A stretch of 64,000 nucleotides of DNA, taken from contig CP142452.1 of NCBI GenBank assembly GCA_038049695.1, positions 30,368,501 through 30,432,500 of the forward strand, read 5' to 3'. The position numbers were made by a program, and so were the translations under genes. This DNA comes from Cinnamomum chago (lineage: Eukaryota > Streptophyta > Magnoliopsida > Laurales > Lauraceae). Below the pieces are notes generated by a model. That model saw only the letters and a program-made list of their open reading frames with translations. It did not search any database and was not told the DNA's origin. This document shows positions 10,981 to 64,000 of the stretch, in pieces; within the stretch, counting starts at the first letter, position 1; every line of letters starts with the position of its first letter.

Positions 10981-11006
10981 AATCTTGGTGTTTTTGTCAG
11001 ATCATG

Positions 11007-11662: not shown

Positions 11663-11669
11663 ATTACAC

Positions 11670-15315: not shown

Positions 15316-15316
15316 G

Positions 15317-16010: not shown

Positions 16011-16017
16011 AAGTTTT

Positions 16018-16035: not shown

Positions 16036-16102
16036 ATTTTTCATCACTTGAGGTAATTTTTCCAACCTATCTTTTTAATAGCTTTGTGGGTGTGCCTTTA
16101 CT

Positions 16103-32820: not shown

Positions 32821-35800
32821 AATCCGGGATTCGGAATCTCGTTCCGTCAGTTCCTATGAGCCATGAAAGACTATGGTCCCATTCCCGTCAAGTTTCGAGG
32901 GCAACGGAGCCCGTTTTCTCATTTTGGGCGCTCGGAGGCTCATTTTTTAGGTTTTAAGATAATGTTCTAACCTAAAACTACGTTTCAACTGTACGGGCTA
33001 TCCGGGATTTAGAATCTCGTTCTGTCAGTTCTTACAAGTCCTGAATGAGTAGGGGCCCGTGGCCGTCAAGTTTCACCGGCAACGGACCCTGTCTGCTGAT
33101 TTTGTGCGCCCGGAGGCTCGTTTTCTAGGTTTTAAGCTAACGTTCTAACTTAAATCTACGTTCTAACTGTACGGCAATCCGGGACTCGTAATCTCGTTCC
33201 GTCAGTTCCTACAAGTCATGAATGACTAGAGGCCCGTTTCGTCAAGTTTCAGGGGCAACGGAGCCCATTTGCTCATTTTGGGCACATGGAGGCTTGTTTT
33301 CTAGGTTTTCAGTTAACGATCTAACTTAAACCTACGTTTCATATGTACGGAAAATCCTGGATTCGGAACCTCGTTCCGTCAGTTCTTGCAAGTCATGAAT
33401 GACTAGGTGTCCGTGCCCGTAAAGTTTCATGGGCAACGGAGCCAGTTAGCTCATTTTGGGCGCTTGGAGGCTTACTTTTTAGATTTAAGCTAACGTTCTA
33501 ACTTAGACCTACGTTTCAACTGTACGGACCATCCGGAATTCAGAATCTCGATCCGTCAGTTCCAGCAAGTAATGAATGACTACGGACCCGTGCCCGTCAA
33601 ATTTCACGGGCAACGGCCCCGTTTGCTCATTAAGGGGCCCCGGAGGCTCGTTTTCTAGATTTAAAGCAAACGTTCTAACTTAAACGTACGTTTCAACCGT
33701 ACGGGCAATCCGGCAATCGAATTCTCGTTCTGTCAGTTCCTACAAGTCGTGAATGACTAGGAGCCCGTGCCCGTCAAGTCTCCCAGGCAACGGAGCCCGT
33801 TTGCTTATTTTGGGCGCCCGGACTTTCGTTTTCTATGTTTTAAGCTAACATTCTAACTTAAACTTACGTTTCGACTGTACGTGCAATCCGGGATTCGGAA
33901 TCTCGTTCCGTCAATTCCAGTAAGTCATGAATGACTAGGGACCCGTGCCCGGCACGTTTCTAGGGCAATGAAGCCCGGTTTCTCATTTTGGGCGCCCGGA
34001 GGCTCGTTTTCTAGGTTTTAAGCTAACGTTCTAACCTAAACCTAGCTTCCAACTGTGCGGGCAATCCGGGATTCGGAATCTCGTTCCGTCAGTTCCTGTC
34101 AGCCATGAATGACAAGAGTCCTGTGCCCGTCAGGTTTCACGGTCAACAGATCCCGTTAGGTCATTTTGTGCCCCCGGAGGATCGTTTTCTAGGTTTTAAG
34201 CTAACGTTTTAACTTCAACCAACGAGTCAACTGTACGGGCAATCCGGGATTCGGAATCTCGTTCCGTCAATTCTTGTAAGTCATGAATGACTAGGGGCCC
34301 GTGCCCGGCAAGTTTCTAGGGCAAAGAAGCACGTTTTCTCATTTTGGGCGTTCGGAGGCTCGTTTTCTAGGTTTTAAAGCTAATGTTCTTACCTAAACCT
34401 ACGTTTCAACTGTATGGGCAATCCGGGATTTAGAATCTCCTTCTGTCAGTTCTTACAAGTCCTGAATGAGTAGGGGCCCGTGGCCGTCAAGTTTCACGGG
34501 CAACGGACCCCGTCTGCTGATTTTGTGCGCCCGGAGGCTCGTTTTCTAGGTTTTAAGCTAACGTTCTAACTTAAATCTACGTTCTAACTGTACGGGCAAT
34601 CCGGGACTCATAATCTCGTTCCGTCAGTTCCTGCAAGTCATGAATGACTAGAGGCCTGTCTCGTCAAGTTTCAGGGGCAACGGAGCTCGTTTGCTCATTT
34701 TGGGCACATGGAGGCTTGTTTTCTAGGTTTTAAGTTAACGATCTAACTTAAACCTACGTTTAATATGTACGGAAAATCCGGGATTCGGAACCTCATTCCG
34801 TCAGTTCTTGCAAGTCATGAATGACTAGGTGTCCGTGCCCGTAAAGTTTCACGGGCAACGGAGTCAGTTAGCTCATTTTGGGCGCTTGGGGGCTTATTTT
34901 CTAGATTTATGCTAGCGTTCTAACTTAGACCTACGTTTCAACTGTACGGACCAACCGGAATTCAGAAACTCGATCCGTCAGTTCCAACAAGTGATGAATG
35001 ACTACGGACCCGTGCCCGTCAAATTTCACGGGCAACGGACCCCGTTTGCTGATTAAGCGGTCTCGGAGGCTCGTTTTCTAGATTTAAAGCAAACGTTCTA
35101 ACTTAAACCTACGTTTCAACCGTGCGGGCAATCCGGTAATCGAATTCTCGTTCTGTCAGTTCCTACAAGTCGTGAATGACTAGGAGCCCGTGCCCGTCAA
35201 GTTTCCCAGGCAACGGATCCCGTTTGCTTATTTTGGGCGCCCGGACTTTCGTTTTTTATGTGTTAAGCTAACGTTCTAACTTAAACTTACGTTTCGACTG
35301 TACGTGCCATCCGGGATTCGGAATCTCGTTCCGTCAATTCCTGTAAGTCATGAATGATTAGGGGCCCGTGCCCGGCACGTTTCTAGGGCAATGAAGCTCG
35401 TTTTCTCATTTTAGGCGCTCGGAGGCTCGTTTTCTAGGTTTTAAGCTAACGTTCTAACCTAAACCTAGCTTCCAACTGTGCGGGCAATCCGGGATTCGGA
35501 ATCCCGTTCCGTCAGTTCCAGTAAGCCATGAATGACAAGGGTCCTGTGCCCGTCAGGTTTCACGGTCAACAGATCCCGTTAGGTCATTTTGTGCCCCCGG
35601 AGGATCGTTTTCTAGGTTTTAAGCTAACGTTTTAACTTCAACCAACGAGTCAACTGTACGGGCAATTCGGGATTCGGAATCTCGTTCCGTCAATTCCTGT
35701 AAGTCATGTAGGACTAGGGGCCCGTGCCCGTCAAGTTTCGAGCGCAACGGAGCCCGTTTTCCCAATTTGGGCGCTCGGAGTCTCGTTTTCTAGGTTTTAA

Positions 35801-38800
35801 GCTAATGTTCTTACCTAAACCTCCGTTACAACTGTACGGAAAATCCGAGAGTTAGAATCTCGTTCTGTCAGTTCTTGCAAGTCATGAATGACTAGAGGCC
35901 CGTTTCGTCAAGTTTCAGGGGCAACGGAGCCCGTTTGCTCATTTTGGGCACATGGAGGCTTGTTTTCTAGGTTTTGAGTTAACGATCTAACTTAAACCTA
36001 CGTTTCATATGTACGGAAAATCCTGGATTCGGAACCTCGTTCCGTCAGTTCTTGCAAGTCATGAATGACTAGGTGTCCGTGCCTGTAAAGTTTCACGAGC
36101 AACGGAGCCAGTTAGCTGATTTTGTGCGCCCGGATGCTCGTTTTTTAGGTTTTAAGCTAACGTTCTAACTTAAATCTACGTTCTAACTGTACGGGCAATC
36201 CGGGACTCGTAATCTCGTTCTGTCAGTTCCTACAAGTCATGAATGACTAGAGGCCCGTTTCGTCAAGTTTCAGGGGCAACGGAGCCCGTTTGCTCATTTT
36301 GGGCACATGGAGGCTTGTTTTCTAGGTTTTGAGTTAACGATCTAACTTAAACCTACGTTTCATATGTACGGAAAATCCTGGATTCGGAACCTCGTTCCGT
36401 CAGTTCTTGCAAGTCATGAATGACTAGGTGTCCGTGCCCGTAAAGTTTCACGAGCAACGGAGCCAGTTAGCTCATTTTGGGCGCTTGGAGGCTTACTTTC
36501 TAGATTTAAGCTAACGTTCTAACTTAGACCTACGTTTCAACTGTACGGACCATCCGGAATTCAGAATCTCGATCCGTCAGTTCCAGCAAGTCATGAATGA
36601 CTACGGACCCGTGCCCGTCAAGTTTCACGGGCAACGGACCCCGTTTGCTCATTAAGGGGTCCCGGAGGCTCGTTTTCTAGATTTAAAGCAAACGTTCTAA
36701 CTTAAACCTACGTTTCAACCGTACGGGCAATCCGGCAATCGAATTCTCGTTCTGTCAGTTCCTACAAGTCGTGAATGACTAGGAGCCCGTGCCCGTCAAG
36801 TCTCCCAGGCAACGGAGCCCGTTTGCTTAGTTTGGACGCCCCAACTTTCGTTTTCTATGTTTTAAGCTAACATTCTAACTTAAACTTACGTTTCGACTGT
36901 ACGTGTAATCCGGGATTCGGAATCTCGTTCCGTCAATTCCTGTAAGTCATGAATGACTAGGGGCCCGTGCCCGGCACGTTTCTAGGGCAATGAAGCCCGT
37001 TTTCTCATTTTGGGCGCTCGGAGGCTCGTTTTCTAGGTTTTAAGCTAACGTTCTAACCTAAACCTAGCATCCAACTGTGCGGGCAATCCGGGATTCGGAA
37101 TCCCGTTCCGTCAGTTCCAGTAAGCCATGAATGACAAGGGTCCTGTGCCCGTCAGGTTTCACGGTCAACAGATCCCGTTAGGTCATTTCGTGCCCCCGGA
37201 GGATCGTTTTCTAGGTTTTAAGCTAACGTTTTAACTTCAACCAACGAGTCAACTGTACGGGCAATCCGGGATTCGGAATCTCGATCCGTCAATTCTTGTA
37301 AGTCATGAATGACTAGGGGCCCGTGCCCGGCAAGTTTCTAGGGCAAAGAAGCCCGTTTTCTCATTTTGGGCGCTCGGAGGCTCGTTTTCTAGGTTTTAAA
37401 GCTAATGTTCTTACCTAAACCTACGTTTCAACTGTACGGGCAATCCGGGATTTAGAATCTCCTTCTGTCAGTTCTTACTAGTCCTGAATGAGTAGGGGCC
37501 CGTGGCCGTCAAGTTTCACGGGCAACGGACCCCGTCTGCTGATTTTGTGCGCCCGCAGGCTCGTTTTCTAGGTTTTAAGCTAACGTTCTAACTTAAATCT
37601 ACGTTCTAACTGTACGGGCAATCCGGGACTCATAATCTCGTTCCGTCAGTTCCTGCAAGTCATGAATGACTAGAGGCCCGTCTCGTCAAGTTTCAGGGGC
37701 AACGGAGCCCGTTTGCTCATTTTGTGCACATGGAGGCTTGTTTTCTAGGTTTTAAGTTAACGATCTAACTTAAACCTACGTTTCATATGTACGGAAAATC
37801 CGGGATTCGGAACCTCATTCCGTCAGTTTTTACATGTCATGAATGACTAACTGGCAACGGAGCCAGTTAGCTCATTTTGGGCGCTTGTAGGCTTATTTTC
37901 TAGGTTTAAGCTAACGTTCTAACTTTTAAACTTACGTTTCAATTGTACGGACCATCCGGAATTTACAATCTCGATCCGTCATTTCCTACAAGTCATGAAT
38001 GACTACGGACCCGTGCCCGTCAAATTTCACAGGCAGCGGACCCCGTTTGCTCATTAAGCGGCCCCGGAAGCTCGTTTTCTAGATTTAAAGCTTACGTTCT
38101 AACTTAAACCTATGTTTCAACCGTACGGGCAATCCGGTAATAGAATTTTCGTTCTGTCAGTTCCTGCAAGTCGTGAATGACTAGGAGCCCGTGCCCGTCA
38201 AGTCTCCCAAGAAACGGAGCCCGTTTGCTTATTTTGGGCGCTCGGACTTTCGTTTTCTATGTTTTAAGCTAACGTTCTAACTTAAACTTACGTTTCGACT
38301 GTACGTGCAATCCGGGATTCGAAATCTCGTTCCTTCAATTCCTGTAAGTCATGAATGACTAGGGGCCCGTGCCTGGCAAGTTTCTAGGGAAATGGAGCCC
38401 GTTTTCTCATTTTGGGCGCTCGGAGGCTCGTTTTCTAGGTTTTAAGCTAACGTTCTAACCTAAACATAGCTTCCAGCTGTGCGGGCAATCCGGGATTCGG
38501 AATCTCGTTCCGTCAATTCTTGTAAGCCACGAAAGACTATGGTCCCGTGCCCGGCAAGTTTCTAGGGCAAAGAAGCCCGTTTTCTCATTTTGGGCGCTCG
38601 GAGGCTCGTTTTCTAGGTTTGAAAGCTAATGTTCTTACCTAAACCTACGTTTCAACTGTACGGGCAATCCGGGATTTAGAATCTCCTTCTGTCAGTTCTT
38701 ACAAGTCCTAAATGAGTAGGGGCCCGTGGCCGTCAAGTTTCACGGACAACGGACCCCGTCTGCTGATTTTGTGCGCCCGCAGGCTCATTTTCTAGGTTTT

Positions 38801-39887
38801 AAGATAATGTTCTAACCTAAAACTACGTTTCAACTGTACGGGCAATCCGGGATTTAGAATCTCGTTCTGTCAGTTCTTACAAGTCCTAAATGAGTAGGGG
38901 CCCGTGGCCGTCAAGTTTCACGGGCAACGGACCCTGTCTGCTGATTTTGTGCGCCCGGAGGCTCGTTTTCTAGGTTTTAAGCTAACGTTCTAACTTAAAT
39001 CTACGTTCTAACTGTACGGCAATCCGGGACTCGTAATCTCGTTCCGTCAGTTCCTACAAGTCATGAATGACTAGAGGCCCGTTTCGTCAAGTTTCAGGGG
39101 CAACGGAGCCCGTTTGCTCATTTTGGGCACATGGAGGCTTGTTTTCTAGGTTTTAAGTTAACGATCTAACTTAAACCTACGTTTCATATGTACGGAAAAT
39201 CCGGGATTCGGAACCTCATTCCGTCAGTTTTTATATTTCATGAATGACTAACTGGCAACGGAGCCAGTTAGCTCATTTTGGGCGCTTGTAGGCTTATTTT
39301 TTAGGTTTAAGCTAACGTTCTAACTTTTAAACCTACGTTTCAATCGTACGGACCATCCGGAATTTACAATCTCGATCCGTCATTTCTTACAAGTCATGAA
39401 TGACTACGGACCCGTGCCCGTCAAATTTCACGGGCAGCGGACCCCGTTTGCTCATTAAGGGGCCCCGGAAGCTCGTTTTCTAGATTTAAAGCTTACGTTC
39501 TAACTTAAACCTATGTTTCAACCATACGGACAATCCGGTAATAGAATTCTCGTTCTGTCAGTTCCTGCAAGTCGTGAATGACTAGGAGCCCGTGCCCGTC
39601 AAGTCTCCCAAGAAACGGAGCCCGTTTGCTTATTTTGGGCGCCCGGACTTTCGTTTTCTATGTTTTAAGCTAACGTTCTAACTTAAACTTACGTTTCGAC
39701 TGTACGTGCAATCCGGGATTCGAAATCTCGTTTCTTCAATTCCTGTAAGTCATGAATGACTAGGGGCCCGTGCCTGGCAAGTTTCTAGGGAAATGGAGCC
39801 CGTTTTCTCATTTTGGGCGCTCGGAGGCTCGTTTTCTAGGTTTTAAGCTAACGTTCTAACCTAAACATAGCTTCCAGCTGTGCGGGC
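32821..39887 (+). repeat. 40-mer higher-order repeat, copy 1 (7,067 bp)
   Basis: First recognisable copy of the 40-monomer unit, aligned from monomer 1 (AATCCGGG at 32,821). It differs from later copies at scattered sites, for example TTCCTATGAG versus TTCCTGTGAG, GGGCTATCC versus GGGCAAGCC, a 1-bp deletion in GGCCCCG near 33,615, TTTAATATG versus TTTCATATG near 34,760 and GAGTCAG versus GAGCCAG near 34,861. Similarity extends weakly leftward to about 32.1 kb and then goes out of register. Confidence 0.93.
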
Positions 39888-42800
39888 AATCCGGGATTCG
39901 GAATCTCGTTCCGTCAGTTCCTGTGAGCCATGAAAGACTATGGTCCCATTCCCGTCAAGTTTCGAGGGCAACGGAGCCCGTTTTCTCATTTTGGGCGCTC
40001 GGAGGCTCATTTTTTAGGTTTTAAGATAATGTTCTAACCTAAAACTACGTTTCAACTGTACGGGCAAGCCGGGATTTAGAATCTCGTTCTGTCAGTTCTT
40101 ACAAGTCCTGAATGAGTAGGGGCCCGTGGCCGTCAAGTTTCACGGGCAACGGACCCTGTCTGCTGATTTTGTGCGCCCGGAGGCTCGTTTTCTAGGTTTT
40201 AAGCTAACGTTCTAACTTAAATCTACGTTCTAACTGTACGGCAATCCGGGACTCGTAATCTCGTTCCGTCAGTTCCTACAAGTCATGAATGACTAGAGGC
40301 CCGTTTCGTCAAGTTTCAGGGGCAACGGAGCCCGTTTGCTCATTTTGGGCACATGGAGGCTTGTTTTCTAGGTTTTGAGTTACCGATCTAACTTAAACCT
40401 ACGTTTCATATGTACGGAAAATCCTGGATTCGGAACCTCGTTCCGTCAGTTCTTGCAAGTCATGAATGACTAGGTGTCCGTGCCCGTAAAGTTTCATGGG
40501 CAACGGAGCCAGTTAGCTCATTTTGGGCGCTTGGAGGCTTACTTTTTAGATTTAAGCTAACGTTCTAACTTAGACCTACGTTTCAACTGTACGGACCATC
40601 CGGAATTCAGAATCTCGATCCGTCAGTTCCAGCAAGTAATGAATGACTACGGACCCGTGCCCGTCAAATTTCACGGGCAACGGACCCCGTTTGCTCATTA
40701 AGGGGCCCCGGAGGCTCGTTTTCTAGATTTAAAGCAAACGTTCTAACTTAAACGTACGTTTCAACCGTACGGGCAATCCGGCAATCGAATTCTCGTTCTG
40801 TCAGTTCCTACAAGTCGTGAATGACTAGGAGCCCGTGCCCGTCAAGTCTCCCAGGCAACGGAGCCCGTTTGCTTATTTTGGGCGCCCGGACTTTCGTTTT
40901 CTATGTTTTAAGCTAACATTCTAACTTAAACTTACGTTTCGACTGTACGTGCAATCCGGGATTCGGAATCTCGTTCCGTCAATTCCAGTAAGTCATGAAT
41001 GACTAGGGACCCGTGCCCGGCACGTTTCTAGGGCAATGAAGCCCGGTTTCTCATTTTGGGCGCCCGGAGGCTCGTTTTCTAGGTTTTAAGCTAACGTTCT
41101 AACCTAAACCTAGCTTCCAACTGTGCGGGCAATCCGGGATTCGGAATCTCGTTCCGTCAGTTCCTGTCAGCCATGAATGACAAGAGTCCTGTGCCCGTCA
41201 GGTTTCACGGTCAACAGATCCCGTTAGGTCATTTTGTGCCCCCGGAGGATCGTTTTCTAGGTTTTAAGCTAACGTTTTAACTTCAACCAACGAGTCAACT
41301 GTACGGGCAATCCGGGATTCGGAATCTCGTTCCGTCAATTCTTGTAAGTCATGAATGACTAGGGGCCCGTGCCCGGCAAGTTTCTAGGGCAAAGAAGCAC
41401 GTTTTCTCATTTTGGGCGTTCGGAGGCTCGTTTTCTAGGTTTTAAAGCTAATGTTCTTACCTAAACCTACGTTTCAACTGTATGGGCAATCCGGGATTTA
41501 GAATCTCCTTCTGTCAGTTCTTACAAGTCCTGAATGAGTAGGGGCCCGTGGCCGTCAAGTTTCACGGGCAACGGACCCCGTCTGCTGATTTTGTGCGCCC
41601 GGAGGCTCGTTTTCTAGGTTTTAAGCTAACGTTCTAACTTAAATCTACGTTCTAACTGTACGGGCAATCCGGGACTCATAATCTCGTTCCGTCAGTTCCT
41701 GCAAGTTATGAATGACTAGAGGCCTGTCTCGTCAAGTTTCAGGGGCAACGGAGCTCGTTTGCTCATTTTGGGCACATGGAGGCTTGTTTTCTAGGTTTTA
41801 AGTTAACGATCTAACTTAAACCTACGTTTCATATGTACGGAAAATCCGGGATTCGGAACCTCATTCCGTCAGTTCTTGCAAGTCATGAATGACTAGGTGT
41901 CCGTGCCCGTAAAGTTTCACGGGCAACGGAGCCAGTTAGCTCATTTTGGGCGCTTGGGGGCTTATTTTCTAGATTTATGCTAGCGTTCTAACTTAGACCT
42001 ACGTTTCAACTGTACGGACCAACCGGAATTCAGAAACTCGATCCGTCAGTTCCAACAAGTGATGAATGACTACGGACCCGTGCCCGTCAAATTTCACGGG
42101 CAACGGACCCCGTTTGCTGATTAAGCGGTCTCGGAGGCTCGTTTTCTAGATTTAAAGCAAACGTTCTAACTTAAACCTACGTTTCAACCGTGCGGGCAAT
42201 CCGGTAATCGAATTCTCGTTCTGTCAGTTCCTACAAGTCGTGAATGACTAGGAGCCCGTGCCCGTCAAGTTTCCCAGGCAACGGATCCCGTTTGCTTATT
42301 TTGGGCGCCCGGACTTTCGTTTTTTATGTGTTAAGCTAACGTTCTAACTTAAACTTACGTTTCGACTGTACGTGCCATCCGGGATTCGGAATCTCGTTCC
42401 GTCAATTCCTGTAAGTCATGAATGATTAGGGGCCCGTGCCCGGCACGTTTCTAGGGCAATGAAGCTCGTTTTCTCATTTTAGGCGCTCGGAGGCTCGTTT
42501 TCTAGGTTTTAAGCTAACGTTCTAACCTAAACCTAGCTTCCAACTGTGCGGGCAATCCGGGATTCGGAATCCCGTTCCGTCAGTTCCAGTAAGCCATGAA
42601 TGACAAGGGTCCTGTGCCCGTCAGGTTTCACGGTCAACAGATCCCGTTAGGTCATTTTGTGCCCCCGGAGGATCGTTTTCTAGGTTTTAAGCTAACGTTT
42701 TAACTTCAACCAACGAGTCAACTGTACGGGCAATTCGGGATTCGGAATCTCGTTCCGTCAATTCCTGTAAGTCATGTAGGACTAGGGGCCCGTGCCCGTC

Positions 42801-45800
42801 AAGTTTCGAGCGCAACGGAGCCCGTTTTCCCAATTTGGGCGCTCGGAGTCTCGTTTTCTAGGTTTTAAGCTAATGTTCTTACCTAAACCTCCGTTACAAC
42901 TGTACGGAAAATCCGAGAGTTAGAATCTCGTTCTGTCAGTTCTTGCAAGTCATGAATGACTAGAGGCCCGTTTCGTCAAGTTTCAGGGGCAACGGAGCCC
43001 GTTTGCTCATTTTGGGCACATGGAGGCTTGTTTTCTAGGTTTTGAGTTAACGATCTAACTTAAACCTACGTTTCATATGTACGGAAAATCCTGGATTCGG
43101 AACCTCGTTCCGTCAGTTCTTGCAAGTCATGAATGACTAGGTGTCCGTGCCCGTAAAGTTTCACGAGCAACGGAGCCAGTTAGCTGATTTTGTGCGCCCG
43201 GATGCTCGTTTTTTAGGTTTTAAGCTAACGTTCTAACTTAAATCTACGTTCTAACTGTACGGGCAATCCGGGACTCGTAATCTCGTTCTGTCAGTTCCTA
43301 CAAGTCATGAATGACTAGAGGCCCGTTTCGTCAAGTTTCAGGGGCAACGGAGCCCGTTTGCTCATTTTGGGCACATGGAGGCTTGTTTTCTAGGTTTTGA
43401 GTTAACGATCTAACTTAAACCTACGTTTCATATGTACGGAAAATCCTGGATTCGGAACCTCGTTCCGTCAGTTCTTGCAAGTCATGAATGACTAGGTGTC
43501 CGTGCCCGTAAAGTTTCACGAGCAACGGAGCCAGTTAGCTCATTTTGGGCGCTTGGAGGCTTACTTTCTAGATTTAAGCTAACGTTCTAACTTAGACCTA
43601 CGTTTCAACTGTACGGACCATCCGGAATTCAGAATCTCGATCCGTCAGTTCCAGCAAGTCATGAATGACTACGGACCCGTGCCCGTCAAGTTTCACGGGC
43701 AACGGACCCCGTTTGCTCATTAAGGGGTCCCGGAGGCTCGTTTTCTAGATTTAAAGCAAACGTTCTAACTTAAACCTACGTTTCAACCGTACGGGCAATC
43801 CGGCAATCGAATTCTCGTTCTGTCAGTTCCTACAAGTCGTGAATGACTAGGAGCCCGTGCCCGTCAAGTCTCCCAGGCAACGGAGCCCGTTTGCTTAGTT
43901 TGGACGCCCCAACTTTCGTTTTCTATGTTTTAAGCTAACATTCTAACTTAAACTTACGTTTCGACTGTACGTGTAATCCGGGATTCGGAATCTCGTTCCG
44001 TCAATTCCTGTAAGTCATGAATGACTAGGGGCCCGTGCCCGGCACGTTTCTAGGGCAATGAAGCCCGTTTTCTCATTTTGGGCGCTCGGAGGCTCGTTTT
44101 CTAGGTTTTAAGCTAACGTTCTAACCTAAACCTAGCATCCAACTGTGCGGGCAATCCGGGATTCGGAATCCCGTTCCGTCAGTTCCAGTAAGCCATGAAT
44201 GACAAGGGTCCTGTGCCCGTCAGGTTTCACGGTCAACAGATCCCGTTAGGTCATTTTGTGCCCCCGGAGGATCGTTTTCTAGGTTTTAAGCTAACGTTTT
44301 AACTTCAACCAACGAGTCAACTGTACGGGCAATCCGGGATTCGGAATCTCGTTCCGTCAGTTCCTGTGAGCCATGAAAGACTATGGTCCCCTTCCCGTCA
44401 AGTTTCGAGGGCAACGGAGCCCGTTTTCTCATTTTGGGTGCTCGGAGGCTCATTTTTTAGGTTTTAAGATAATGTTCTAACCTAAAACTACGTTTCAACT
44501 GTACGGGCAATCCGGGATTTAGAATCTCGTTCTGTCAGTTCTTACAAGTCCTGAATGAGTAGGGGCCCGTGGCCGTCAAGTTTCACGGGCAACGGACCCT
44601 GTCTGCTGATTTTGTGCGCCCGGAGGCTCGTTTTCTAGGTTTTAAGCTAACGTTCTAACTTAAATCTACGTTCTAACTGTACGGGCAATCCGGGACTCAT
44701 AATCTCGTTCCGTCAGTTCCTGCAAGTCATGAATGACTAGAGGCCCGTCTCGTCAAGTTTCAGGGGCAACGGAGCCCGTTTGCTCATTTTGTGCACATGG
44801 AGGCTTGTTTTCTAGGTTTTAAGTTAACGATCTAACTTAAACCTACGTTTCATATGTACGGAAAATCCGGGATTCGGAACCTCATTCCGTCAGTTTTTAC
44901 ATGTCATGAATGACTAACTGGCAACGGAGCCAGTTAGCTCATTTTGGGCGCTTGTAGGCTTATTTTCTAGGTTTAAGCTAACGTTCTAACTTTTAAACTT
45001 ACGTTTCAATTGTACGGACCATCCGGAATTTACAATCTCGATCCGTCATTTCCTACAAGTCATGAATGACTACGGACCCGTGCCCGTCAAATTTCACAGG
45101 CAGCGGACCCCGTTTGCTCATTAAGCGGCCCCGGAAGCTCGTTTTCTAGATTTAAAGCTTACGTTCTAACTTAAACCTATGTTTCAACCGTACGGGCAAT
45201 CCGGTAATAGAATTTTCGTTCTGTCAGTTCCTGCAAGTCGTGAATGACTAGGAGCCCGTGCCCGTCAAGTCTCCCAAGAAACGGAGCCCGTTTGCTTATT
45301 TTGGGCGCTCGGACTTTCGTTTTCTATGTTTTAAGCTAACGTTCTAACTTAAACTTACGTTTCGACTGTACGTGCAATCCGGGATTCGAAATCTCGTTCC
45401 TTCAATTCCTGTAAGTCATGAATGACTAGGGGCCCGTGCCTGGCAAGTTTCTAGGGAAATGGAGCCCGTTTTCTCATTTTGGGCGCTCGGAGGCTCGTTT
45501 TCTAGGTTTTAAGCTAACGTTCTAACCTAAACATAGCTTCCAGCTGTGCGGGCAATCCGGGATTCGGAATCTCGTTCCGTCAATTCTTGTAAGCCACGAA
45601 AGACTATGGTCCCGTGCCCGGCAAGTTTCTAGGGCAAAGAAGCCCGTTTTCTCATTTTGGGCGCTCGGAGGCTCGTTTTCTAGGTTTGAAAGCTAATGTT
45701 CTTACCTAAACCTACGTTTCAACTGTACGGGCAATCCGGGATTTAGAATCTCCTTCTGTCAGTTCTTACAAGTCCTAAATGAGTAGGGGCCCGTGGCCGT

Positions 45801-46954
45801 CAAGTTTCACGGACAACGGACCCCGTCTGCTGATTTTGTGCGCCCGCAGGCTCATTTTCTAGGTTTTAAGATAATGTTCTAACCTAAAACTACGTTTCAA
45901 CTGTACGGGCAATCCGGGATTTAGAATCTCGTTCTGTCAGTTCTTACAAGTCCTAAATGAGTAGGGGCCCGTGGCCGTCAAGTTTCACGGGCAACGGACC
46001 CTGTCTGCTGATTTTGTGCGCCCGGAGGCTCGTTTTCTAGGTTTTAAGCTAACGTTCTAACTTAAATCTACGTTCTAACTGTACGGCAATCCGGGACTCG
46101 TAATCTCGTTCCGTCAGTTCCTACAAGTCATGAATGACTAGAGGCCCGTTTCGTCAAGTTTCAGGGGCAACGGAGCCCGTTTGCTCATTTTGGGCACATG
46201 GAGGCTTGTTTTCTAGGTTTTAAGTTAACGATCTAACTTAAACCTACGTTTCATATGTACGGAAAATCCGGGATTCGGAACCTCATTCCGTCAGTTTTTA
46301 TATTTCATGAATGACTAACTGGCAACGGAGCCAGTTAGCTCATTTTGGGCGCTTGTAGGCTTATTTTTTAGGTTTAAGCTAACGTTCTAACTTTTAAACC
46401 TACGTTTCAATCGTACGGACCATCCGGAATTTACAATCTCGATCCGTCATTTCTTACAAGTCATGAATGACTACGGACCCGTGCCCGTCAAATTTCACGG
46501 GCAGCGGACCCCGTTTGCTCATTAAGGGGCCCCGGAAGCTCGTTTTCTAGATTTAAAGCTTACGTTCTAACTTAAACCTATGTTTCAACCATACGGACAA
46601 TCCGGTAATAGAATTCTCGTTCTGTCAGTTCCTGCAAGTCGTGAATGACTAGGAGCCCGTGCCCGTCAAGTCTCCCAAGAAACGGAGCCCGTTTGCTTAT
46701 TTTGGGCGCCCGGACTTTCGTTTTCTATGTTTTAAGCTAACGTTCTAACTTAAACTTACGTTTCGACTGTACGTGCAATCCGGGATTCGAAATCTCGTTT
46801 CTTCAATTCCTGTAAGTCATGAATGACTAGGGGCCCGTGCCTGGCAAGTTTCTAGGGAAATGGAGCCCGTTTTCTCATTTTGGGCGCTCGGAGGCTCGTT
46901 TTCTAGGTTTTAAGCTAACGTTCTAACCTAAACATAGCTTCCAGCTGTGCGGGC
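39888..46954 (+). repeat. 40-mer higher-order repeat, copy 2 (7,067 bp)
   Basis: Full copy, same monomer order and the same private deletions as copies 3 and 4. I saw no difference from copy 3 at the sites I compared. Confidence 0.95.
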
Positions 46955-52900: not shown

Positions 52901-54021
52901 TTTTGTGCGCCCGCAGGCTCATTTTCTAGGTTTTAAGATAATGTTCTAACCTAAAACTACGTTTCAACTGTACGGGCAATCCGGGATTTAGAATCTCGTT
53001 CTGTCAGTTCTTACAAGTCCTAAATGAGTAGGGGCCCGTGGCCGTCAAGTTTCACGGGCAACGGACCCTGTCTGCTGATTTTGTGCGCCCGGAGGCTCGT
53101 TTTCTAGGTTTTAAGCTAACGTTCTAACTTAAATCTACGTTCTAACTGTACGGCAATCCGGGACTCGTAATCTCGTTCCGTCAGTTCCTACAAGTCATGA
53201 ATGACTAGAGGCCCGTTTCGTCAAGTTTCAGGGGCAACGGAGCCCGTTTGCTCATTTTGGGCACATGGAGGCTTGTTTTCTAGGTTTTAAGTTAACGATC
53301 TAACTTAAACCTACGTTTCATATGTACGGAAAATCCGGGATTCGGAACCTCATTCCGTCAGTTTTTATATTTCATGAATGACTAACTGGCAACGGAGCCA
53401 GTTAGCTCATTTTGGGCGCTTGTAGGCTTATTTTTTAGGTTTAAGCTAACGTTCTAACTTTTAAACCTACGTTTCAATCGTACGGACCATCCGGAATTTA
53501 CAATCTCGATCCGTCATTTCTTACAAGTCATGAATGACTACGGACCCGTGCCCGTCAAATTTCACGGGCAGCGGACCCCGTTTGCTCATTAAGGGGCCCC
53601 GGAAGCTCGTTTTCTAGATTTAAAGCTTACGTTCTAACTTAAACCTATGTTTCAACCATACGGACAATCCGGTAATAGAATTCTCGTTCTGTCAGTTCCT
53701 GCAAGTCGTGAATGACTAGGAGCCCGTGCCCGTCAAGTCTCCCAAGAAACGGAGCCCGTTTGCTTATTTTGGGCGCCCGGACTTTCGTTTTCTATGTTTT
53801 AAGCTAACGTTCTAACTTAAACTTACGTTTCGACTGTACGTGCAATCCGGGATTCGAAATCTCGTTTCTTCAATTCCTGTAAGTCATGAATGACTAGGGG
53901 CCCGTGCCTGGCAAGTTTCTAGGGAAATGGAGCCCGTTTTCTCATTTTGGGCGCTCGGAGGCTCGTTTTCTAGGTTTTAAGCTAACGTTCTAACCTAAAC
54001 ATAGCTTCCAGCTGTGCGGGC
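46955..54021 (+). repeat. 40-mer higher-order repeat, copy 3 (7,067 bp)
   Basis: Full copy. It is distinguished from copy 4 by CCTACAAGTC (47,342) where copy 4 has CCTAGAAGTC (54,409). Confidence 0.95.
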
Positions 54022-57000
54022 AATCCGGGATTCGGAATCTCGTTCCGTCAGTTCCTGTGAGCCATGAAAGACTATGGTCCCATTCCCGTCAAGTTTCGAG
54101 GGCAACGGAGCCCGTTTTCTCATTTTGGGCGCTCGGAGGCTCATTTTTTAGGTTTTAAGATAATGTTCTAACCTAAAACTACGTTTCAACTGTACGGGCA
54201 AGCCGGGATTTAGAATCTCGTTCTGTCAGTTCTTACAAGTCCTGAATGAGTAGGGGCCCGTGGCCGTCAAGTTTCACGGGCAACGGACCCTGTCTGCTGA
54301 TTTTGTGCGCCCGGAGGCTCGTTTTCTAGGTTTTAAGCTAACGTTCTAACTTAAATCTACGTTCTAACTGTACGGCAATCCGGGACTCGTAATCTCGTTC
54401 CGTCAGTTCCTAGAAGTCATGAATGACTAGAGGCCCGTTTCGTCAAGTTTCAGGGGCAACGGAGCCCGTTTGCTCATTTTGGGCACATGGAGGCTTGTTT
54501 TCTAGGTTTTGAGTTACCGATCTAACTTAAACCTACGTTTCATATGTACGGAAAATCCTGGATTCGGAACCTCGTTCCGTCAGTTCTTGCAAGTCATGAA
54601 TGACTAGGTGTCCGTGCCCGTAAAGTTTCATGGGCAACGGAGCCAGTTAGCTCATTTTGGGCGCTTGGAGGCTTACTTTTTAGATTTAAGCTAACGTTCT
54701 AACTTAGACCTACGTTTCAACTGTACGGACCATCCGGAATTCAGAATCTCGATCCGTCAGTTCCAGCAAGTAATGAATGACTACGGACCCGTGCCCGTCA
54801 AATTTCACGGGCAACGGACCCCGTTTGCTCATTAAGGGGCCCCGGAGGCTCGTTTTCTAGATTTAAAGCAAACGTTCTAACTTAAACGTACGTTTCAACC
54901 GTACGGGCAATCCGGCAATCGAATTCTCGTTCTGTCAGTTCCTACAAGTCGTGAATGACTAGGAGCCCGTGCCCGTCAAGTCTCCCAGGCAACGGAGCCC
55001 GTTTGCTTATTTTGGGCGCCCGGACTTTCGTTTTCTATGTTTTAAGCTAACATTCTAACTTAAACTTACGTTTCGACTGTACGTGCAATCCGGGATTCGG
55101 AATCTCGTTCCGTCAATTCCAGTAAGTCATGAATGACTAGGGACCCGTGCCCGGCACGTTTCTAGGGCAATGAAGCCCGGTTTCTCATTTTGGGCGCCCG
55201 GAGGCTCGTTTTCTAGGTTTTAAGCTAACGTTCTAACCTAAACCTAGCTTCCAACTGTGCGGGCAATCCGGGATTCGGAATCTCGTTCCGTCAGTTCCTG
55301 TCAGCCATGAATGACAAGAGTCCTGTGCCCGTCAGGTTTCACGGTCAACAGATCCCGTTAGGTCATTTTGTGCCCCCGGAGGATCGTTTTCTAGGTTTTA
55401 AGCTAACGTTTTAACTTCAACCAACGAGTCAACTGTACGGGCAATCCGGGATTCGGAATCTCGTTCCGTCAATTCTTGTAAGTCATGAATGACTAGGGGC
55501 CCGTGCCCGGCAAGTTTCTAGGGCAAAGAAGCACGTTTTCTCATTTTGGGCGTTCGGAGGCTCGTTTTCTAGGTTTTAAAGCTAATGTTCTTACCTAAAC
55601 CTACGTTTCAACTGTATGGGCAATCCGGGATTTAGAATCTCCTTCTGTCAGTTCTTACAAGTCCTGAATGAGTAGGGGCCCGTGGCCGTCAAGTTTCACG
55701 GGCAACGGACCCCGTCTGCTGATTTTGTGCGCCCGGAGGCTCGTTTTCTAGGTTTTAAGCTAACGTTCTAACTTAAATCTACGTTCTAACTGTACGGGCA
55801 ATCCGGGACTCATAATCTCGTTCCGTCAGTTCCTGCAAGTTATGAATGACTAGAGGCCTGTCTCGTCAAGTTTCAGGGGCAACGGAGCTCGTTTGCTCAT
55901 TTTGGGCACATGGAGGCTTGTTTTCTAGGTTTTAAGTTAACGATCTAACTTAAACCTACGTTTCATATGTACGGAAAATCCGGGATTCGGAACCTCATTC
56001 CGTCAGTTCTTGCAAGTCATGAATGACTAGGTGTCCGTGCCCGTAAAGTTTCACGGGCAACGGAGCCAGTTAGCTCATTTTGGGCGCTTGGGGGCTTATT
56101 TTCTAGATTTATGCTAGCGTTCTAACTTAGACCTACGTTTCAACTGTACGGACCAACCGGAATTCAGAAACTCGATCCGTCAGTTCCAACAAGTGATGAA
56201 TGACTACGGACCCGTGCCCGTCAAATTTCACGGGCAACGGACCCCGTTTGCTGATTAAGCGGTCTCGGAGGCTCGTTTTCTAGATTTAAAGCAAACGTTC
56301 TAACTTAAACCTACGTTTCAACCGTGCGGGCAATCCGGTAATCGAATTCTCGTTCTGTCAGTTCCTACAAGTCGTGAATGACTAGGAGCCCGTGCCCGTC
56401 AAGTTTCCCAGGCAACGGATCCCGTTTGCTTATTTTGGGCGCCCGGACTTTCGTTTTTTATGTGTTAAGCTAACGTTCTAACTTAAACTTACGTTTCGAC
56501 TGTACGTGCCATCCGGGATTCGGAATCTCGTTCCGTCAATTCCTGTAAGTCATGAATGATTAGGGGCCCGTGCCCGGCACGTTTCTAGGGCAATGAAGCT
56601 CGTTTTCTCATTTTAGGCGCTCGGAGGCTCGTTTTCTAGGTTTTAAGCTAACGTTCTAACCTAAACCTAGCTTCCAACTGTGCGGGCAATCCGGGATTCG
56701 GAATCCCGTTCCGTCAGTTCCAGTAAGCCATGAATGACAAGGGTCCTGTGCCCGTCAGGTTTCACGGTCAACAGATCCCGTTAGGTCATTTTGTGCCCCC
56801 GGAGGATCGTTTTCTAGGTTTTAAGCTAACGTTTTAACTTCAACCAACGAGTCAACTGTACGGGCAATTCGGGATTCGGAATCTCGTTCCGTCAATTCCT
56901 GTAAGTCATGTAGGACTAGGGGCCCGTGCCCGTCAAGTTTCGAGCGCAACGGAGCCCGTTTTCCCAATTTGGGCGCTCGGAGTCTCGTTTTCTAGGTTTT

Positions 57001-60000
57001 AAGCTAATGTTCTTACCTAAACCTCCGTTACAACTGTACGGAAAATCCGAGAGTTAGAATCTCGTTCTGTCAGTTCTTGCAAGTCATGAATGACTAGAGG
57101 CCCGTTTCGTCAAGTTTCAGGGGCAACGGAGCCCGTTTGCTCATTTTGGGCACATGGAGGCTTGTTTTCTAGGTTTTGAGTTAACGATCTAACTTAAACC
57201 TACGTTTCATATGTACGGAAAATCCTGGATTCGGAACCTCGTTCCGTCAGTTCTTGCAAGTCATGAATGACTAGGTGTCCGTGCCCGTAAAGTTTCACGA
57301 GCAACGGAGCCAGTTAGCTGATTTTGTGCGCCCGGATGCTCGTTTTTTAGGTTTTAAGCTAACGTTCTAACTTAAATCTACGTTCTAACTGTACGGGCAA
57401 TCCGGGACTCGTAATCTCGTTCTGTCAGTTCCTACAAGTCATGAATGACTAGAGGCCCGTTTCGTCAAGTTTCAGGGGCAACGGAGCCCGTTTGCTCATT
57501 TTGGGCACATGGAGGCTTGTTTTCTAGGTTTTGAGTTAACGATCTAACTTAAACCTACGTTTCATATGTACGGAAAATCCTGGATTCGGAACCTCGTTCC
57601 GTCAGTTCTTGCAAGTCATGAATGACTAGGTGTCCGTGCCCGTAAAGTTTCACGAGCAACGGAGCCAGTTAGCTCATTTTGGGCGCTTGGAGGCTTACTT
57701 TCTAGATTTAAGCTAACGTTCTAACTTAGACCTACGTTTCAACTGTACGGACCATCCGGAATTCAGAATCTCGATCCGTCAGTTCCAGCAAGTCATGAAT
57801 GACTACGGACCCGTGCCCGTCAAGTTTCACGGGCAACGGACCCCGTTTGCTCATTAAGGGGTCCCGGAGGCTCGTTTTCTAGATTTAAAGCAAACGTTCT
57901 AACTTAAACCTACGTTTCAACCGTACGGGCAATCCGGCAATCGAATTCTCGTTCTGTCAGTTCCTACAAGTCGTGAATGACTAGGAGCCCGTGCCCGTCA
58001 AGTCTCCCAGGCAACGGAGCCCGTTTGCTTAGTTTGGACGCCCCAACTTTCGTTTTCTATGTTTTAAGCTAACATTCTAACTTAAACTTACGTTTCGACT
58101 GTACGTGTAATCCGGGATTCGGAATCTCGTTCCGTCAATTCCTGTAAGTCATGAATGACTAGGGGCCCGTGCCCGGCACGTTTCTAGGGCAATGAAGCCC
58201 GTTTTCTCATTTTGGGCGCTCGGAGGCTCGTTTTCTAGGTTTTAAGCTAACGTTCTAACCTAAACCTAGCATCCAACTGTGCGGGCAATCCGGGATTCGG
58301 AATCCCGTTCCGTCAGTTCCAGTAAGCCATGAATGACAAGGGTCCTGTGCCCGTCAGGTTTCACGGTCAACAGATCCCGTTAGGTCATTTTGTGCCCCCG
58401 GAGGATCGTTTTCTAGGTTTTAAGCTAACGTTTTAACTTCAACCAACGAGTCAACTGTACGGGCAATCCGGGATTCGGAATCTCGTTCCGTCAGTTCCTG
58501 TGAGCCATGAAAGACTATGGTCCCCTTCCCGTCAAGTTTCGAGGGCAACGGAGCCCGTTTTCTCATTTTGGGTGCTCGGAGGCTCATTTTTTAGGTTTTA
58601 AGATAATGTTCTAACCTAAAACTACGTTTCAACTGTACGGGCAATCCGGGATTTAGAATCTCGTTCTGTCAGTTCTTACAAGTCCTGAATGAGTAGGGGC
58701 CCGTGGCCGTCAAGTTTCACGGGCAACGGACCCTGTCTGCTGATTTTGTGCGCCCGGAGGCTCGTTTTCTAGGTTTTAAGCTAACGTTCTAACTTAAATC
58801 TACGTTCTAACTGTACGGGCAATCCGGGACTCATAATCTCGTTCCGTCAGTTCCTGCAAGTCATGAATGACTAGAGGCCCGTCTCGTCAAGTTTCAGGGG
58901 CAACGGAGCCCGTTTGCTCATTTTGTGCACATGGAGGCTTGTTTTCTAGGTTTTAAGTTAACGATCTAACTTAAACCTACGTTTCATATGTACGGAAAAT
59001 CCGGGATTCGGAACCTCATTCCGTCAGTTTTTACATGTCATGAATGACTAACTGGCAACGGAGCCAGTTAGCTCATTTTGGGCGCTTGTAGGCTTATTTT
59101 CTAGGTTTAAGCTAACGTTCTAACTTTTAAACTTACGTTTCAATTGTACGGACCATCCGGAATTTACAATCTCGATCCGTCATTTCCTACAAGTCATGAA
59201 TGACTACGGACCCGTGCCCGTCAAATTTCACAGGCAGCGGACCCCGTTTGCTCATTAAGCGGCCCCGGAAGCTCGTTTTCTAGATTTAAAGCTTACGTTC
59301 TAACTTAAACCTATGTTTCAACCGTACGGGCAATCCGGTAATAGAATTTTCGTTCTGTCAGTTCCTGCAAGTCGTGAATGACTAGGAGCCCGTGCCCGTC
59401 AAGTCTCCCAAGAAACGGAGCCCGTTTGCTTATTTTGGGCGCTCGGACTTTCGTTTTCTATGTTTTAAGCTAACGTTCTAACTTAAACTTACGTTTCGAC
59501 TGTACGTGCAATCCGGGATTCGAAATCTCGTTCCTTCAATTCCTGTAAGTCATGAATGACTAGGGGCCCGTGCCTGGCAAGTTTCTAGGGAAATGGAGCC
59601 CGTTTTCTCATTTTGGGCGCTCGGAGGCTCGTTTTCTAGGTTTTAAGCTAACGTTCTAACCTAAACATAGCTTCCAGCTGTGCGGGCAATCCGGGATTCG
59701 GAATCTCGTTCCGTCAATTCTTGTAAGCCACGAAAGACTATGGTCCCGTGCCCGGCAAGTTTCTAGGGCAAAGAAGCCCGTTTTCTCATTTTGGGCGCTC
59801 GGAGGCTCGTTTTCTAGGTTTGAAAGCTAATGTTCTTACCTAAACCTACGTTTCAACTGTACGGGCAATCCGGGATTTAGAATCTCCTTCTGTCAGTTCT
59901 TACAAGTCCTAAATGAGTAGGGGCCCGTGGCCGTCAAGTTTCACGGACAACGGACCCCGTCTGCTGATTTTGTGCGCCCGCAGGCTCATTTTCTAGGTTT

Positions 60001-61088
60001 TAAGATAATGTTCTAACCTAAAACTACGTTTCAACTGTACGGGCAATCCGGGATTTAGAATCTCGTTCTGTCAGTTCTTACAAGTCCTAAATGAGTAGGG
60101 GCCCGTGGCCGTCAAGTTTCACGGGCAACGGACCCTGTCTGCTGATTTTGTGCGCCCGGAGGCTCGTTTTCTAGGTTTTAAGCTAACGTTCTAACTTAAA
60201 TCTACGTTCTAACTGTACGGCAATCCGGGACTCGTAATCTCGTTCCGTCAGTTCCTACAAGTCATGAATGACTAGAGGCCCGTTTCGTCAAGTTTCAGGG
60301 GCAACGGAGCCCGTTTGCTCATTTTGGGCACATGGAGGCTTGTTTTCTAGGTTTTAAGTTAACGATCTAACTTAAACCTACGTTTCATATGTACGGAAAA
60401 TCCGGGATTCGGAACCTCATTCCGTCAGTTTTTATATTTCATGAATGACTAACTGGCAACGGAGCCAGTTAGCTCATTTTGGGCGCTTGTAGGCTTATTT
60501 TTTAGGTTTAAGCTAACGTTCTAACTTTTAAACCTACGTTTCAATCGTACGGACCATCCGGAATTTACAATCTCGATCCGTCATTTCTTACAAGTCATGA
60601 ATGACTACGGACCCGTGCCCGTCAAATTTCACGGGCAGCGGACCCCGTTTGCTCATTAAGGGGCCCCGGAAGCTCGTTTTCTAGATTTAAAGCTTACGTT
60701 CTAACTTAAACCTATGTTTCAACCATACGGACAATCCGGTAATAGAATTCTCGTTCTGTCAGTTCCTGCAAGTCGTGAATGACTAGGAGCCCGTGCCCGT
60801 CAAGTCTCCCAAGAAACGGAGCCCGTTTGCTTATTTTGGGCGCCCGGACTTTCGTTTTCTATGTTTTAAGCTAACGTTCTAACTTAAACTTACGTTTCGA
60901 CTGTACGTGCAATCCGGGATTCGAAATCTCGTTTCTTCAATTCCTGTAAGTCATGAATGACTAGGGGCCCGTGCCTGGCAAGTTTCTAGGGAAATGGAGC
61001 CCGTTTTCTCATTTTGGGCGCTCGGAGGCTCGTTTTCTAGGTTTTAAGCTAACGTTCTAACCTAAACATAGCTTCCAGCTGTGCGGGC
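54022..61088 (+). repeat. 40-mer higher-order repeat, copy 4 (7,067 bp)
   Basis: Full copy used to count monomers. Starts fall at 54,022, 54,200, 54,377 ... 60,911, giving 40 monomers, 38 of them 177-179 bp and two (58,998 and 60,399) of 156 bp. Type order in five rounds: (F/G)HABCDE, FGHABCDE, FG(H/A)BABCDE, F(F/G)HABCDE, (F/G)HHABCDE, that is 7+8+9+8+8 monomers. Confidence 0.96.
59048..59071. other. Perfect 9-bp inverted repeat at a monomer deletion
   Basis: CTAACTGGC and GCCAGTTAG flank a 6-base loop in the shortened type B monomer 29. Complete, non-deleted B monomers read ACGGGCAACGGAGCCAGTTAG here and cannot pair this way. The same hairpin is at 37,847, 44,914 and 51,981 (monomer 29 of the other copies) and at 39,248, 46,315, 53,382 and 60,449 (monomer 37). 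Confidence 0.9.
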
Positions 61089-62993
61089 AATCCGGGATTC
61101 GGAATCTCGTTCCGTCAGTTCCTGTGAGCCATGAAAGACTATGGTCCCATTCCCGTCAAGTTTCGAGGGCAACGGAGCCCGTTTTCTCATTTTGGGCGCT
61201 CGGAGGCTCATTTTTTAGGTTTTAAGATAATGTTCTAACCTAAAACTACGTTTCAACTGTACGGGCAAGCCGGGATTTAGAATCTCGTTCTGTCAGTTCT
61301 TACAAGTCCTGAATGAGTAGGGGCCCGTGGCCGTCAAGTTTCACGGGCAACGGACCCTGTCTGCTGATTTTGTGCGCCCGGAGGCTCGTTTTCTAGGTTT
61401 TAAGCTAACGTTCTAACTTAAATCTACGTTCTAACTGTACGGCAATCCGGGACTCGTAATCTCGTTCCGTCAGTTCCTACAAGTCATGAATGACTAGAGG
61501 CCCGTTTCGTCAAGTTTCAGGGGCAACGGAGCCCGTTTGCTCATTTTGGGCACATGGAGGCTTGTTTTCTAGGTTTTGAGTTACCGATCTAACTTAAACC
61601 TACGTTTCATATGTACGGAAAATCCTGGATTCGGAACCTCGTTCCGTCAGTTCTTGCAAGTCATGAATGACTAGGTGTCCGTGCCCGTAAAGTTTCATGG
61701 GCAACGGAGCCAGTTAGCTCATTTTGGGCGCTTGGAGGCTTACTTTTTAGATTTAAGCTAACGTTCTAACTTAGACCTACGTTTCAACTGTACGGACCAT
61801 CCGGAATTCAGAATCTCGATCCGTCAGTTCCAGCAAGTAATGAATGACTACGGACCCGTGCCCGTCAAATTTCACGGGCAACGGACCCCGTTTGCTCATT
61901 AAGGGGCCCCGGAGGCTCGTTTTCTAGATTTAAAGCAAACGTTCTAACTTAAACGTACGTTTCAACCGTACGGGCAATCCGGCAATCGAATTCTCGTTCT
62001 GTCAGTTCCTACAAGTCGTGAATGACTAGGAGCCCGTGCCCGTCAAGTCTCCCAGGCAACGGAGCCCGTTTGCTTATTTTGGGCGCCCGGACTTTCGTTT
62101 TCTATGTTTTAAGCTAACATTCTAACTTAAACTTACGTTTCGACTGTACGTGCAATCCGGGATTCGGAATCTCGTTCCGTCAATTCCAGTAAGTCATGAA
62201 TGACTAGGGACCCGTGCCCGGCACGTTTCTAGGGCAATGAAGCCCGGTTTCTCATTTTGGGCGCCCGGAGGCTCGTTTTCTAGGTTTTAAGCTAACGTTC
62301 TAACCTAAACCTAGCTTCCAACTGTGCGGGCAATCCGGGATTCGGAATCTCGTTCCGTCAGTTCCTGTCAGCCATGAATGACAAGAGTCCTGTGCCCGTC
62401 AGGTTTCACGGTCAACAGATCCCGTTAGGTCATTTTGTGCCCCCGGAGGATCGTTTTCTAGGTTTTAAGCTAACGTTTTAACTTCAACCAACGAGTCAAC
62501 TGTACGGGCAATCCGGGATTCGGAATCTCGTTCCGTCAATTCTTGTAAGTCATGAATGACTAGGGGCCCGTGCCCGGCAAGTTTCTAGGGCAAAGAAGCA
62601 CGTTTTCTCATTTTGGGCGTTCGGAGGCTCGTTTTCTAGGTTTTAAAGCTAATGTTCTTACCTAAACCTACGTTTCAACTGTATGGGCAATCCGGGATTT
62701 AGAATCTCCTTCTGTCAGTTCTTACAAGTCCTGAATGAGTAGGGGCCCGTGGCCGTCAAGTTTCACGGGCAACGGACCCCGTCTGCTGATTTTGTGCGCC
62801 CGGAGGCTCGTTTTCTAGGTTTTAAGCTAACGTTCTAACTTAAATCTACGTTCTAACTGTACGGGCAATCCGGGACTCATAATCTCGTTCCGTCAGTTCC
62901 TGCAAGTTATGAATGACTAGAGGCCTGTCTCGTCAAGTTTCAGGGGCAACGGAGCTCGTTTGCTCATTTTGGGCACATGGAGGCTTGTTTTCT

Positions 62994-63024
62994 AGGTTTT
63001 AAGTTAACGATCTAACTTAAACCT
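62994..63024. other. Strong dyad in type A monomer tail
   Basis: AGGTTTTAAGTTA and TAACTTAAACCT pair over 12 bp with one bulged T around a 6-base loop. The same dyad, in weaker form around a 12-base loop containing AACGTT, is at the equivalent place of most other monomer types. Confidence 0.85.
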
Positions 63025-63281
63025 ACGTTTCATATGTACGGAAAATCCGGGATTCGGAACCTCATTCCGTCAGTTCTTGCAAGTCATGAATGACTAGGTG
63101 TCCGTGCCCGTAAAGTTTCACGGGCAACGGAGCCAGTTAGCTCATTTTGGGCGCTTGGGGGCTTATTTTCTAGATTTATGCTAGCGTTCTAACTTAGACC
63201 TACGTTTCAACTGTACGGACCAACCGGAATTCAGAAACTCGATCCGTCAGTTCCAACAAGTGATGAATGACTACGGACCCG

Positions 63282-63303
63282 TGCCCGTCAAATTTCACGG
63301 GCA
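63282..63303. other. Dyad TGCCCGT / ACGGGCA in type C monomer
   Basis: Seven-base arms around an 8-base loop. The dyad is kept in B and C types and lost to different degrees in A, D, E, F, G and H. Confidence 0.8.
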
Positions 63304-64000
63304 ACGGACCCCGTTTGCTGATTAAGCGGTCTCGGAGGCTCGTTTTCTAGATTTAAAGCAAACGTTCTAACTTAAACCTACGTTTCAACCGTGCGGGCAA
63401 TCCGGTAATCGAATTCTCGTTCTGTCAGTTCCTACAAGTCGTGAATGACTAGGAGCCCGTGCCCGTCAAGTTTCCCAGGCAACGGATCCCGTTTGCTTAT
63501 TTTGGGCGCCCGGACTTTCGTTTTTTATGTGTTAAGCTAACGTTCTAACTTAAACTTACGTTTCGACTGTACGTGCCATCCGGGATTCGGAATCTCGTTC
63601 CGTCAATTCCTGTAAGTCATGAATGATTAGGGGCCCGTGCCCGGCACGTTTCTAGGGCAATGAAGCTCGTTTTCTCATTTTGGGCGCTCGGAGGCTCGTT
63701 TTCTAGGTTTTAAGCTAACGTTCTAACCTAAACCTAGCTTCCAACTGTGCGGGCAATCCGGGATTCGGAATCCCGTTCCGTCAGTTCCAGTAAGCCATGA
63801 ATGACAAGGGTCCTGTGCCCGTCAGGTTTCACGGTCAACAGATCCCGTTAGGTCATTTTGTGCCCCCGGAGGATCGTTTTCTAGGTTTTAAGCTAACGTT
63901 TTAACTTCAACCAACGAGTCAACTGTACGGGCAATTCGGGATTCGGAATCTCGTTCCGTCAATTCCTGTAAGTCATGTAGGACTAGGGGCCCGTGCCCGT

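Follow-up and report, generated by a model that had tools for sequence, protein, structure and literature searches.

Satellite arrays with a 178-bp monomer repeat at near nucleosome length. Such arrays commonly underlie centromeres, where they usually supply the centromeric nucleosomes with near-identical DNA at regular spacing. A higher-order repeat (HOR) is cascading when a monomer type recurs inside one unit. For Arabidopsis, a 2021 paper in Science reportedly describes paired blocks of up to 60 monomers, under a looser definition in which tandem repetition is not required.

In the excerpts of the plant literature compared here, the largest HOR block of Pennisetum purpureum CentP-156 comprises 24 monomers in 3,744 bp (PMC12933667). 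HORs of Arabidopsis thaliana CEN178 mostly span two to three monomers (PMC12321929), with an 8-mer array, R18L8, described as well (PMC10053651). Soybean CentGm-4 reaches pentamers (PMC11447526), the switchgrass unit measures 1,131 bp (PMC4053949) and the satellite units of avocado mostly exceed 1 kb. No unit of 40 monomers or more is stated in the excerpts on Papaver, Brachypodium, Salicaceae, Populus ussuriensis and Forsythia, those on Papaver and Brachypodium giving no maximum. Among primates, the excerpts name the 34-mer DYZ3 of the human Y chromosome as the longest human HOR (PMC8122249, PMC8997354). Larger units of ape alpha-satellite are also reported: 52 monomers for human chromosome 21, in a later claim, and 58 and 59 for orangutan.

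The window analysed here, a stretch of 64,000 nucleotides of Cinnamomum chago (contig CP142452.1, positions 30,368,501 to 30,432,500 of the forward strand), contains a tandem HOR of 40 monomers with a period of 7,067 bp, whose existence in the window is confirmed. It appears to be a large, recently amplified and nested HOR, and few plant units seem to be as large and as homogeneous. As far as the excerpts go, the array shares multi-monomer blocks, a homogeneous core and divergent flanks with CentP-156 (PMC12933667), and differs from it in having 40 monomers against a maximum of 24; CENH3 was mapped in Pennisetum, whereas the present account is drawn from sequence alone. With CEN178 it has in common a 178-bp monomer, local homogenisation and gene-conversion signatures (PMC12321929), a likeness of length and behaviour; the Arabidopsis HORs differ in their size, mostly 2–3 monomers with one 8-mer array.

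The excerpts on DYZ3 describe, as here, a single long unit in near-identical copies, but in an animal, with CENP-A mapped and 34 monomers instead of 40. The cascading HORs of ape alpha-satellite likewise hold tens of near-nucleosome-length monomers per unit. Their monomer is the primate one of 171 bp, the likeness noted is one of organisation, and 3.4 near-identical copies are visible here. The sequence-only reading had considered such a unit notable for a plant. Beside 24 monomers in Pennisetum, mostly 2–3 and in one array 8 in Arabidopsis and at most 5 in soybean, it is indeed unusual in the excerpts compared; units of like or greater size are reported for apes, and the size is thus not unprecedented in eukaryotes. 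No plant unit of this size was found among the literature matches listed, which is weak evidence, as subscription journals lie mostly outside their coverage.

Organization and period of the array

The satellite has a consensus of 178 bp with a G+C content of 52%. Wraparound alignment to this consensus delimits 252 complete monomers from position 19,498 on: 76 before 32,821, 40 in each of copies 1–4 and 16 in copy 5. TRF reports a 178-bp repeat from 20,084 to the end of the window and a 177-bp repeat from 19,498. The weakest identity of any monomer in the array to the consensus is 0.62. The features of the array, all on the + strand, are as follows.

19,498–64,000 (+): 178-bp satellite array in a single orientation, running past the end of the window; from TRF, wraparound segmentation and consensus G+C
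19,498–32,820 (+): disordered flank of the array; 76 monomers with a mean pairwise identity of 0.770, some truncated or fused
32,187–32,820 (+): leftmost stretch that matches the unit at an ungapped lag of 7,067; 12 mismatches in 634 bp
32,821–39,887 (+): HOR copy 1, the edge copy; 40 monomers, 99.46% identity to copy 2
37,284–37,556 (+): patch in copy 1 that resembles a conversion tract; covers monomer 26 and the start of 27, with 26 of the 39 differences between copies 1 and 2
39,888–46,954 (+): HOR copy 2; 40 monomers, 7,067 bp, identical to copy 3
40,066–41,308 (+): nested block, copy 2 monomers 2–8, pairing with monomers 10–16 (41,488–42,731), each at 94% or more
43,265–44,330 (+): second pairing of copy 2 monomers 3–8, with monomers 20–25
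44,509–45,553 (+): nested block, copy 2 monomers 27–32, pairing with monomers 35–40 (45,911–46,954); one 156-bp monomer per block
46,955–54,021 (+): HOR copy 3; 40 monomers, identical to copy 2
54,022–61,088 (+): HOR copy 4; 40 monomers, one private SNV at 54,413 (G; C in the other copies)
61,089–64,000 (+): HOR copy 5; 2,912 bp to the end of the window, 16 complete monomers, private SNV at 63,682 (G; A in copies 2–4)

The view therefore covers three full near-identical copies and part of a fourth (3.4 in total), plus one edge copy. Copies 1–4 hold a constant 40 monomers, head-to-tail and on the same strand, and copy 5 is incomplete. The sequence-only reading had counted the 40 monomers by hand; segmentation reproduces the count in copies 1–4, and independently recovers the starts of monomer 1 at 32,821, 39,888, 46,955, 54,022 and 61,089. 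The anchor TGGTCCCATT, reported at 32,874, 39,941, 47,008, 54,075 and 61,142, lies exactly there, with zero further sites on either strand. The position 32,821 is nevertheless a choice of phase, because ungapped similarity at lag 7,067 begins already near 32,187.

Ungapped autocorrelation over 32,821–64,000 is dominated by 7,067 bp (0.892), followed by 14,134 bp (0.847) and 178 bp (0.613); the peaks at 7,067 and 178 bp are those that the sequence-only reading expected. Its additional weak peak near 1.42 kb was recovered in part: an offset of eight monomers gives the best mean identity at the monomer level, but at the ungapped base level 1,423 bp falls outside the 25 highest lags. A lag of 1,599 bp, or nine monomers, is stronger (0.457) and stands within these 25. 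Within one circular unit, no shorter near-identical period was found. As the highest ungapped lag there reaches 0.617 (178 bp), and the best listed gapped shift over the whole unit, of about eight monomers (against 31,395–38,486), reaches 87.7% identity, no near-identical period other than 7,067 bp emerged.

The satellite shows no depletion of CpG: the observed/expected ratio is 1.21–1.27 in three segments, and flank-side and unit monomers are alike in this respect. The non-satellite flank, at 0.37, is strongly depleted.

Similarity between copies

Copies of the unit are far more alike than the monomers within it: two SNVs separate copies 2–5, against a mean monomer identity of 0.804. Copies 2 and 3 show zero differences over 7,067 bp. 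The private SNV of copy 4 sits at unit position 392 (window position 54,413) and that of copy 5 at unit position 2,594 (window position 63,682). Two SNVs in 24,113 bp amount to 8.3e-5 per base, or about 99.99% identity at the 7,067-bp step. The plant mutation rate is near 7e-9 per site per generation; the divergence of copies 2–5 would then correspond, to an order of magnitude, to ten thousand generations, a rough figure from two events.

The near-identity claimed for all copies holds for copies 2–5 and less so for copy 1. Its BLAST alignment to copy 2 contains 36 mismatches and 2 gap openings (99.46% identity). Aligned by MAFFT, the two copies differ at 39 places: 26 fall in the 273 bp of unit positions 4,464–4,736 and 13 in the remaining ~6.8 kb.

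This patch coincides with a change of monomer type. Monomer 26 of copy 2 lies two changes away from monomer 1; every other monomer of the same copy is 19 or more changes away. Monomer 26 is near monomer 1 in each of copies 2–4, copy 3 being identical and copy 4 having its SNV elsewhere; copy 5 ends earlier. In copy 1, monomer 26 is instead four changes from monomer 9 and four from the upstream monomer at 31,574. The order of types around this position is H-I-B-C in copy 1 and H-A-B-C in copies 2–4. H-I-B-C also occurs at monomers 8–11 and just upstream of the unit, and H-A-B-C is absent from the type strings upstream of the unit.

The patch thus resembles a gene-conversion tract. An I-type monomer may originally have stood at position 26, onto which monomer 1 would have been copied by gene conversion. 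The overwriting would have taken place in the inner lineage after the unit first doubled, and the converted version would then have spread. We infer this order, I-type first, then conversion, then spread, as the simplest one. The direction of the change is not certain, because A-type monomers are present upstream too, in other contexts.

Nested order within the unit

The monomers of one unit are between 0.639 and 1.000 identical to one another. By monomer offset, mean identity peaks at 8 (0.879); none of 2,000 permuted orders exceeds 0.852. Runs of seven (2–8 with 10–16), six (27–32 with 35–40) and six (3–8 with 20–25) successive monomers reach at least 94% in every pair, and the longest such run in 500 permuted orders has four.

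Clustering at distances of 6, 10 and 13% sorts the 40 monomers into 15, 12 and 9 types, respectively. With 9–15 types shared by 40 monomers, the unit is cascading, or nested, by the definition given above. Its type string divides into blocks of 8, 8, 9, 7 and 8 monomers; the types at 17, 19 and 34 are odd ones. Monomers 29 and 37, which start in copy 2 at 44,864 and 46,265, are both 156 bp long, each 22 bp short, 0.968 identical and eight apart; this pair marks a block duplication. Altogether, the 40-monomer HOR of the sequence-only reading was right in kind, and did not capture the nesting, the divergence of the edge copy and the conversion-like patch.

Edge of the array

Between 19,498 and 32,820, the monomers keep the type order of the unit in broken form. 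The ungapped 7,067-bp period is absent before about 32,000, where lag identity is at chance level (0.21–0.29). Gapped alignment to the unit recovers pieces back to ~31,070, at mostly 92–98% between breaks, and 31,002–32,820 is 91.9% identical to the unit's end.

The best identity to the unit averages 0.970 in the last eight upstream monomers and 0.971 in the last four. The eight earlier blocks of eight give, from the outermost, 0.902, 0.920, 0.937, 0.804, 0.921, 0.937, 0.937 and 0.916. The 12 nearest upstream monomers thus stand at ~0.97, against 0.80–0.94 in the 64 beyond; a steady gradient is absent from the outer blocks, and the block at 0.804 contains the three worst monomers. Full-length upstream monomers are 0.879 identical to the overall consensus and those of the unit 0.883, the consensus being weighted to the unit.

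Human arrays are layered likewise in the excerpts compared, a young homogeneous zone lying beside older disordered monomers (PMC12321929, PMC8997354).

Sequence left of the satellite

The motifs TGGTATCAGAGC, at 1,502 in the window, and GCGCCGTTGCC, at 16,020, look like plant LTR-retrotransposon primer sites; within the sequence itself, these two motifs are what points to a plant, and neither coincides with an Rfam or tRNA match. About 70–80 bp after GCGCCGTTGCC begins a direct tandem repeat of ~1,346 bp (16,102–19,497, 98.9% over 2,052 bp), with an A-rich minisatellite of the AAAACCTTTGAAAAAAAG type, that reaches the start of the satellite at 19,498. Presumably this is an LTR retroelement's 5' untranslated region, truncated where the satellite begins. 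An origin of the satellite from this adjoining A-rich repeat is not supported, blastn giving it no match to the flank (E 1e-3, low-complexity filter on).

The flank yielded no usable coding evidence in 4 of its 13 stop-to-stop ORFs of at least 90 aa (positions 1–20,000), scanned with Pfam; their sole match, to PF16870, is sub-threshold (E 0.013; 15.7 bits, where the cut-off is 27). Rfam at the gathering threshold gave zero matches in the window, and ARAGORN no tRNA. Other repeats of the non-satellite flank are a 286-bp direct repeat at 67–596 (1.9 copies, ~91% identical), a dispersed pair at 899–1,121 and 10,122–10,349 (~87% identity over 229 bp), and a 94-bp tandem duplication at 3,882–4,069 (100% match, 2.0 copies), whose perfection suggests a recent event.

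Origin of the 40-monomer unit

Very probably, the window holds the edge of a satellite array, itself probably centromeric or pericentromeric, in which out-of-register homologous recombination, accompanied by gene conversion between monomers, recently amplified a block of 40 monomers head-to-tail. A type order of roughly eight monomers would have given rise to partial repeats, these to a 40-monomer mosaic, and the mosaic would then have been repeated as one unit. The ~8-monomer type order occurs outside as well as inside the edge of the unit, and parts of it recur several times inside the 40-mer; copying by recombination is what we infer.

Amplification may have proceeded by unequal sister exchange or by break-induced replication, and the evidence in the window fits either. 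Both are named as makers of HORs in the excerpt of PMC8997354, according to which unequal exchange or gene conversion by itself accounts less readily for complex HOR structures. Gene conversion between monomers would have acted alongside amplification, and an active homogenisation zone may lie to the right of the window. A centromere function of the array may be supposed by analogy with other such arrays.

The near-identity of the copies could partly stem from the assembly. Taken to its end, this would mean that one 7,067-bp unit was walked repeatedly round the assembly graph and that the tandem copies are unreal; copies that are letter-identical over 7,067 bp, as 2 and 3 are, and two SNVs among copies 2–5 make a hard case for assemblers. 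We regard such a loop as unlikely, given that the private SNVs differ in copies 4 and 5 and that copy 1 carries its 39 differences with a local patch. Besides, every 400-mer within one unit is unique, and exact repeats inside it reach 266 bp at most, so that long accurate reads can order the unit. The same uniqueness lets reads place copy 1 relative to copy 2, while the number of identical inner copies calls for reads longer than the unit. An ordinary short HOR of about eight monomers (1.42 kb), of which 7,067 bp would merely be the multiple, 5 x 8, appears most improbable. The best mean identity at offset 8, the one-to-one pairing of monomers 27–32 with 35–40 and the gapped shift by eight monomers along the unit all speak for it; they are set against a 7,067-bp step of ~99.99% in copies 2–5, compared with 87.7% gapped and 0.617 ungapped for shorter shifts, and against the irregular block lengths and odd types at 17, 19 and 34.

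Homogeneity might also be kept by selection for a bound protein, through a CENP-B-like box at the monomer junction, and not mainly by neutral recombination. The consensus junction (for example around 39,888) does share 8 of 9 core bases with the box, with at most one core mismatch at 137 of 253 junctions. Yet 87 of 2,000 shuffled consensuses match equally well, the third base is A, and not T, in 89% of 125 distinct monomers, and the 17-bp stretch comes 46th of 178 when ranked by conservation. The exact 9-base core of the 17-bp box occurs at one site in the array. Arabidopsis, in the excerpt of PMC12321929, is without a CENPB homologue. Altogether, selection on such a box is very unlikely to be the main cause, and head-to-tail amplification by recombination and conversion stays the preferred reading.

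Significance

Should the array continue at 7,067 bp, it would have a very long tandem HOR unit, above the plant units in the excerpts of the literature compared. An edge copy, a conversion-like patch and a disordered flank lie on one stretch, and together they make the order of events testable. The proposed order runs from 8-mer blocks to the 40-mer mosaic, then conversion and expansion, and this readable history of assembly is, beside the size of the unit, its main interest.

More tentatively, and with less than even confidence, we suggest that plants can build cascading super-HORs in the manner of apes, from an order of ~8 monomers to a 7-kb unit of 40, homogenised to ~99.99% over a long array and independent of CENP-B. 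If true, very long nested HORs would be a general outcome of satellite recombination, and not a primate trait.
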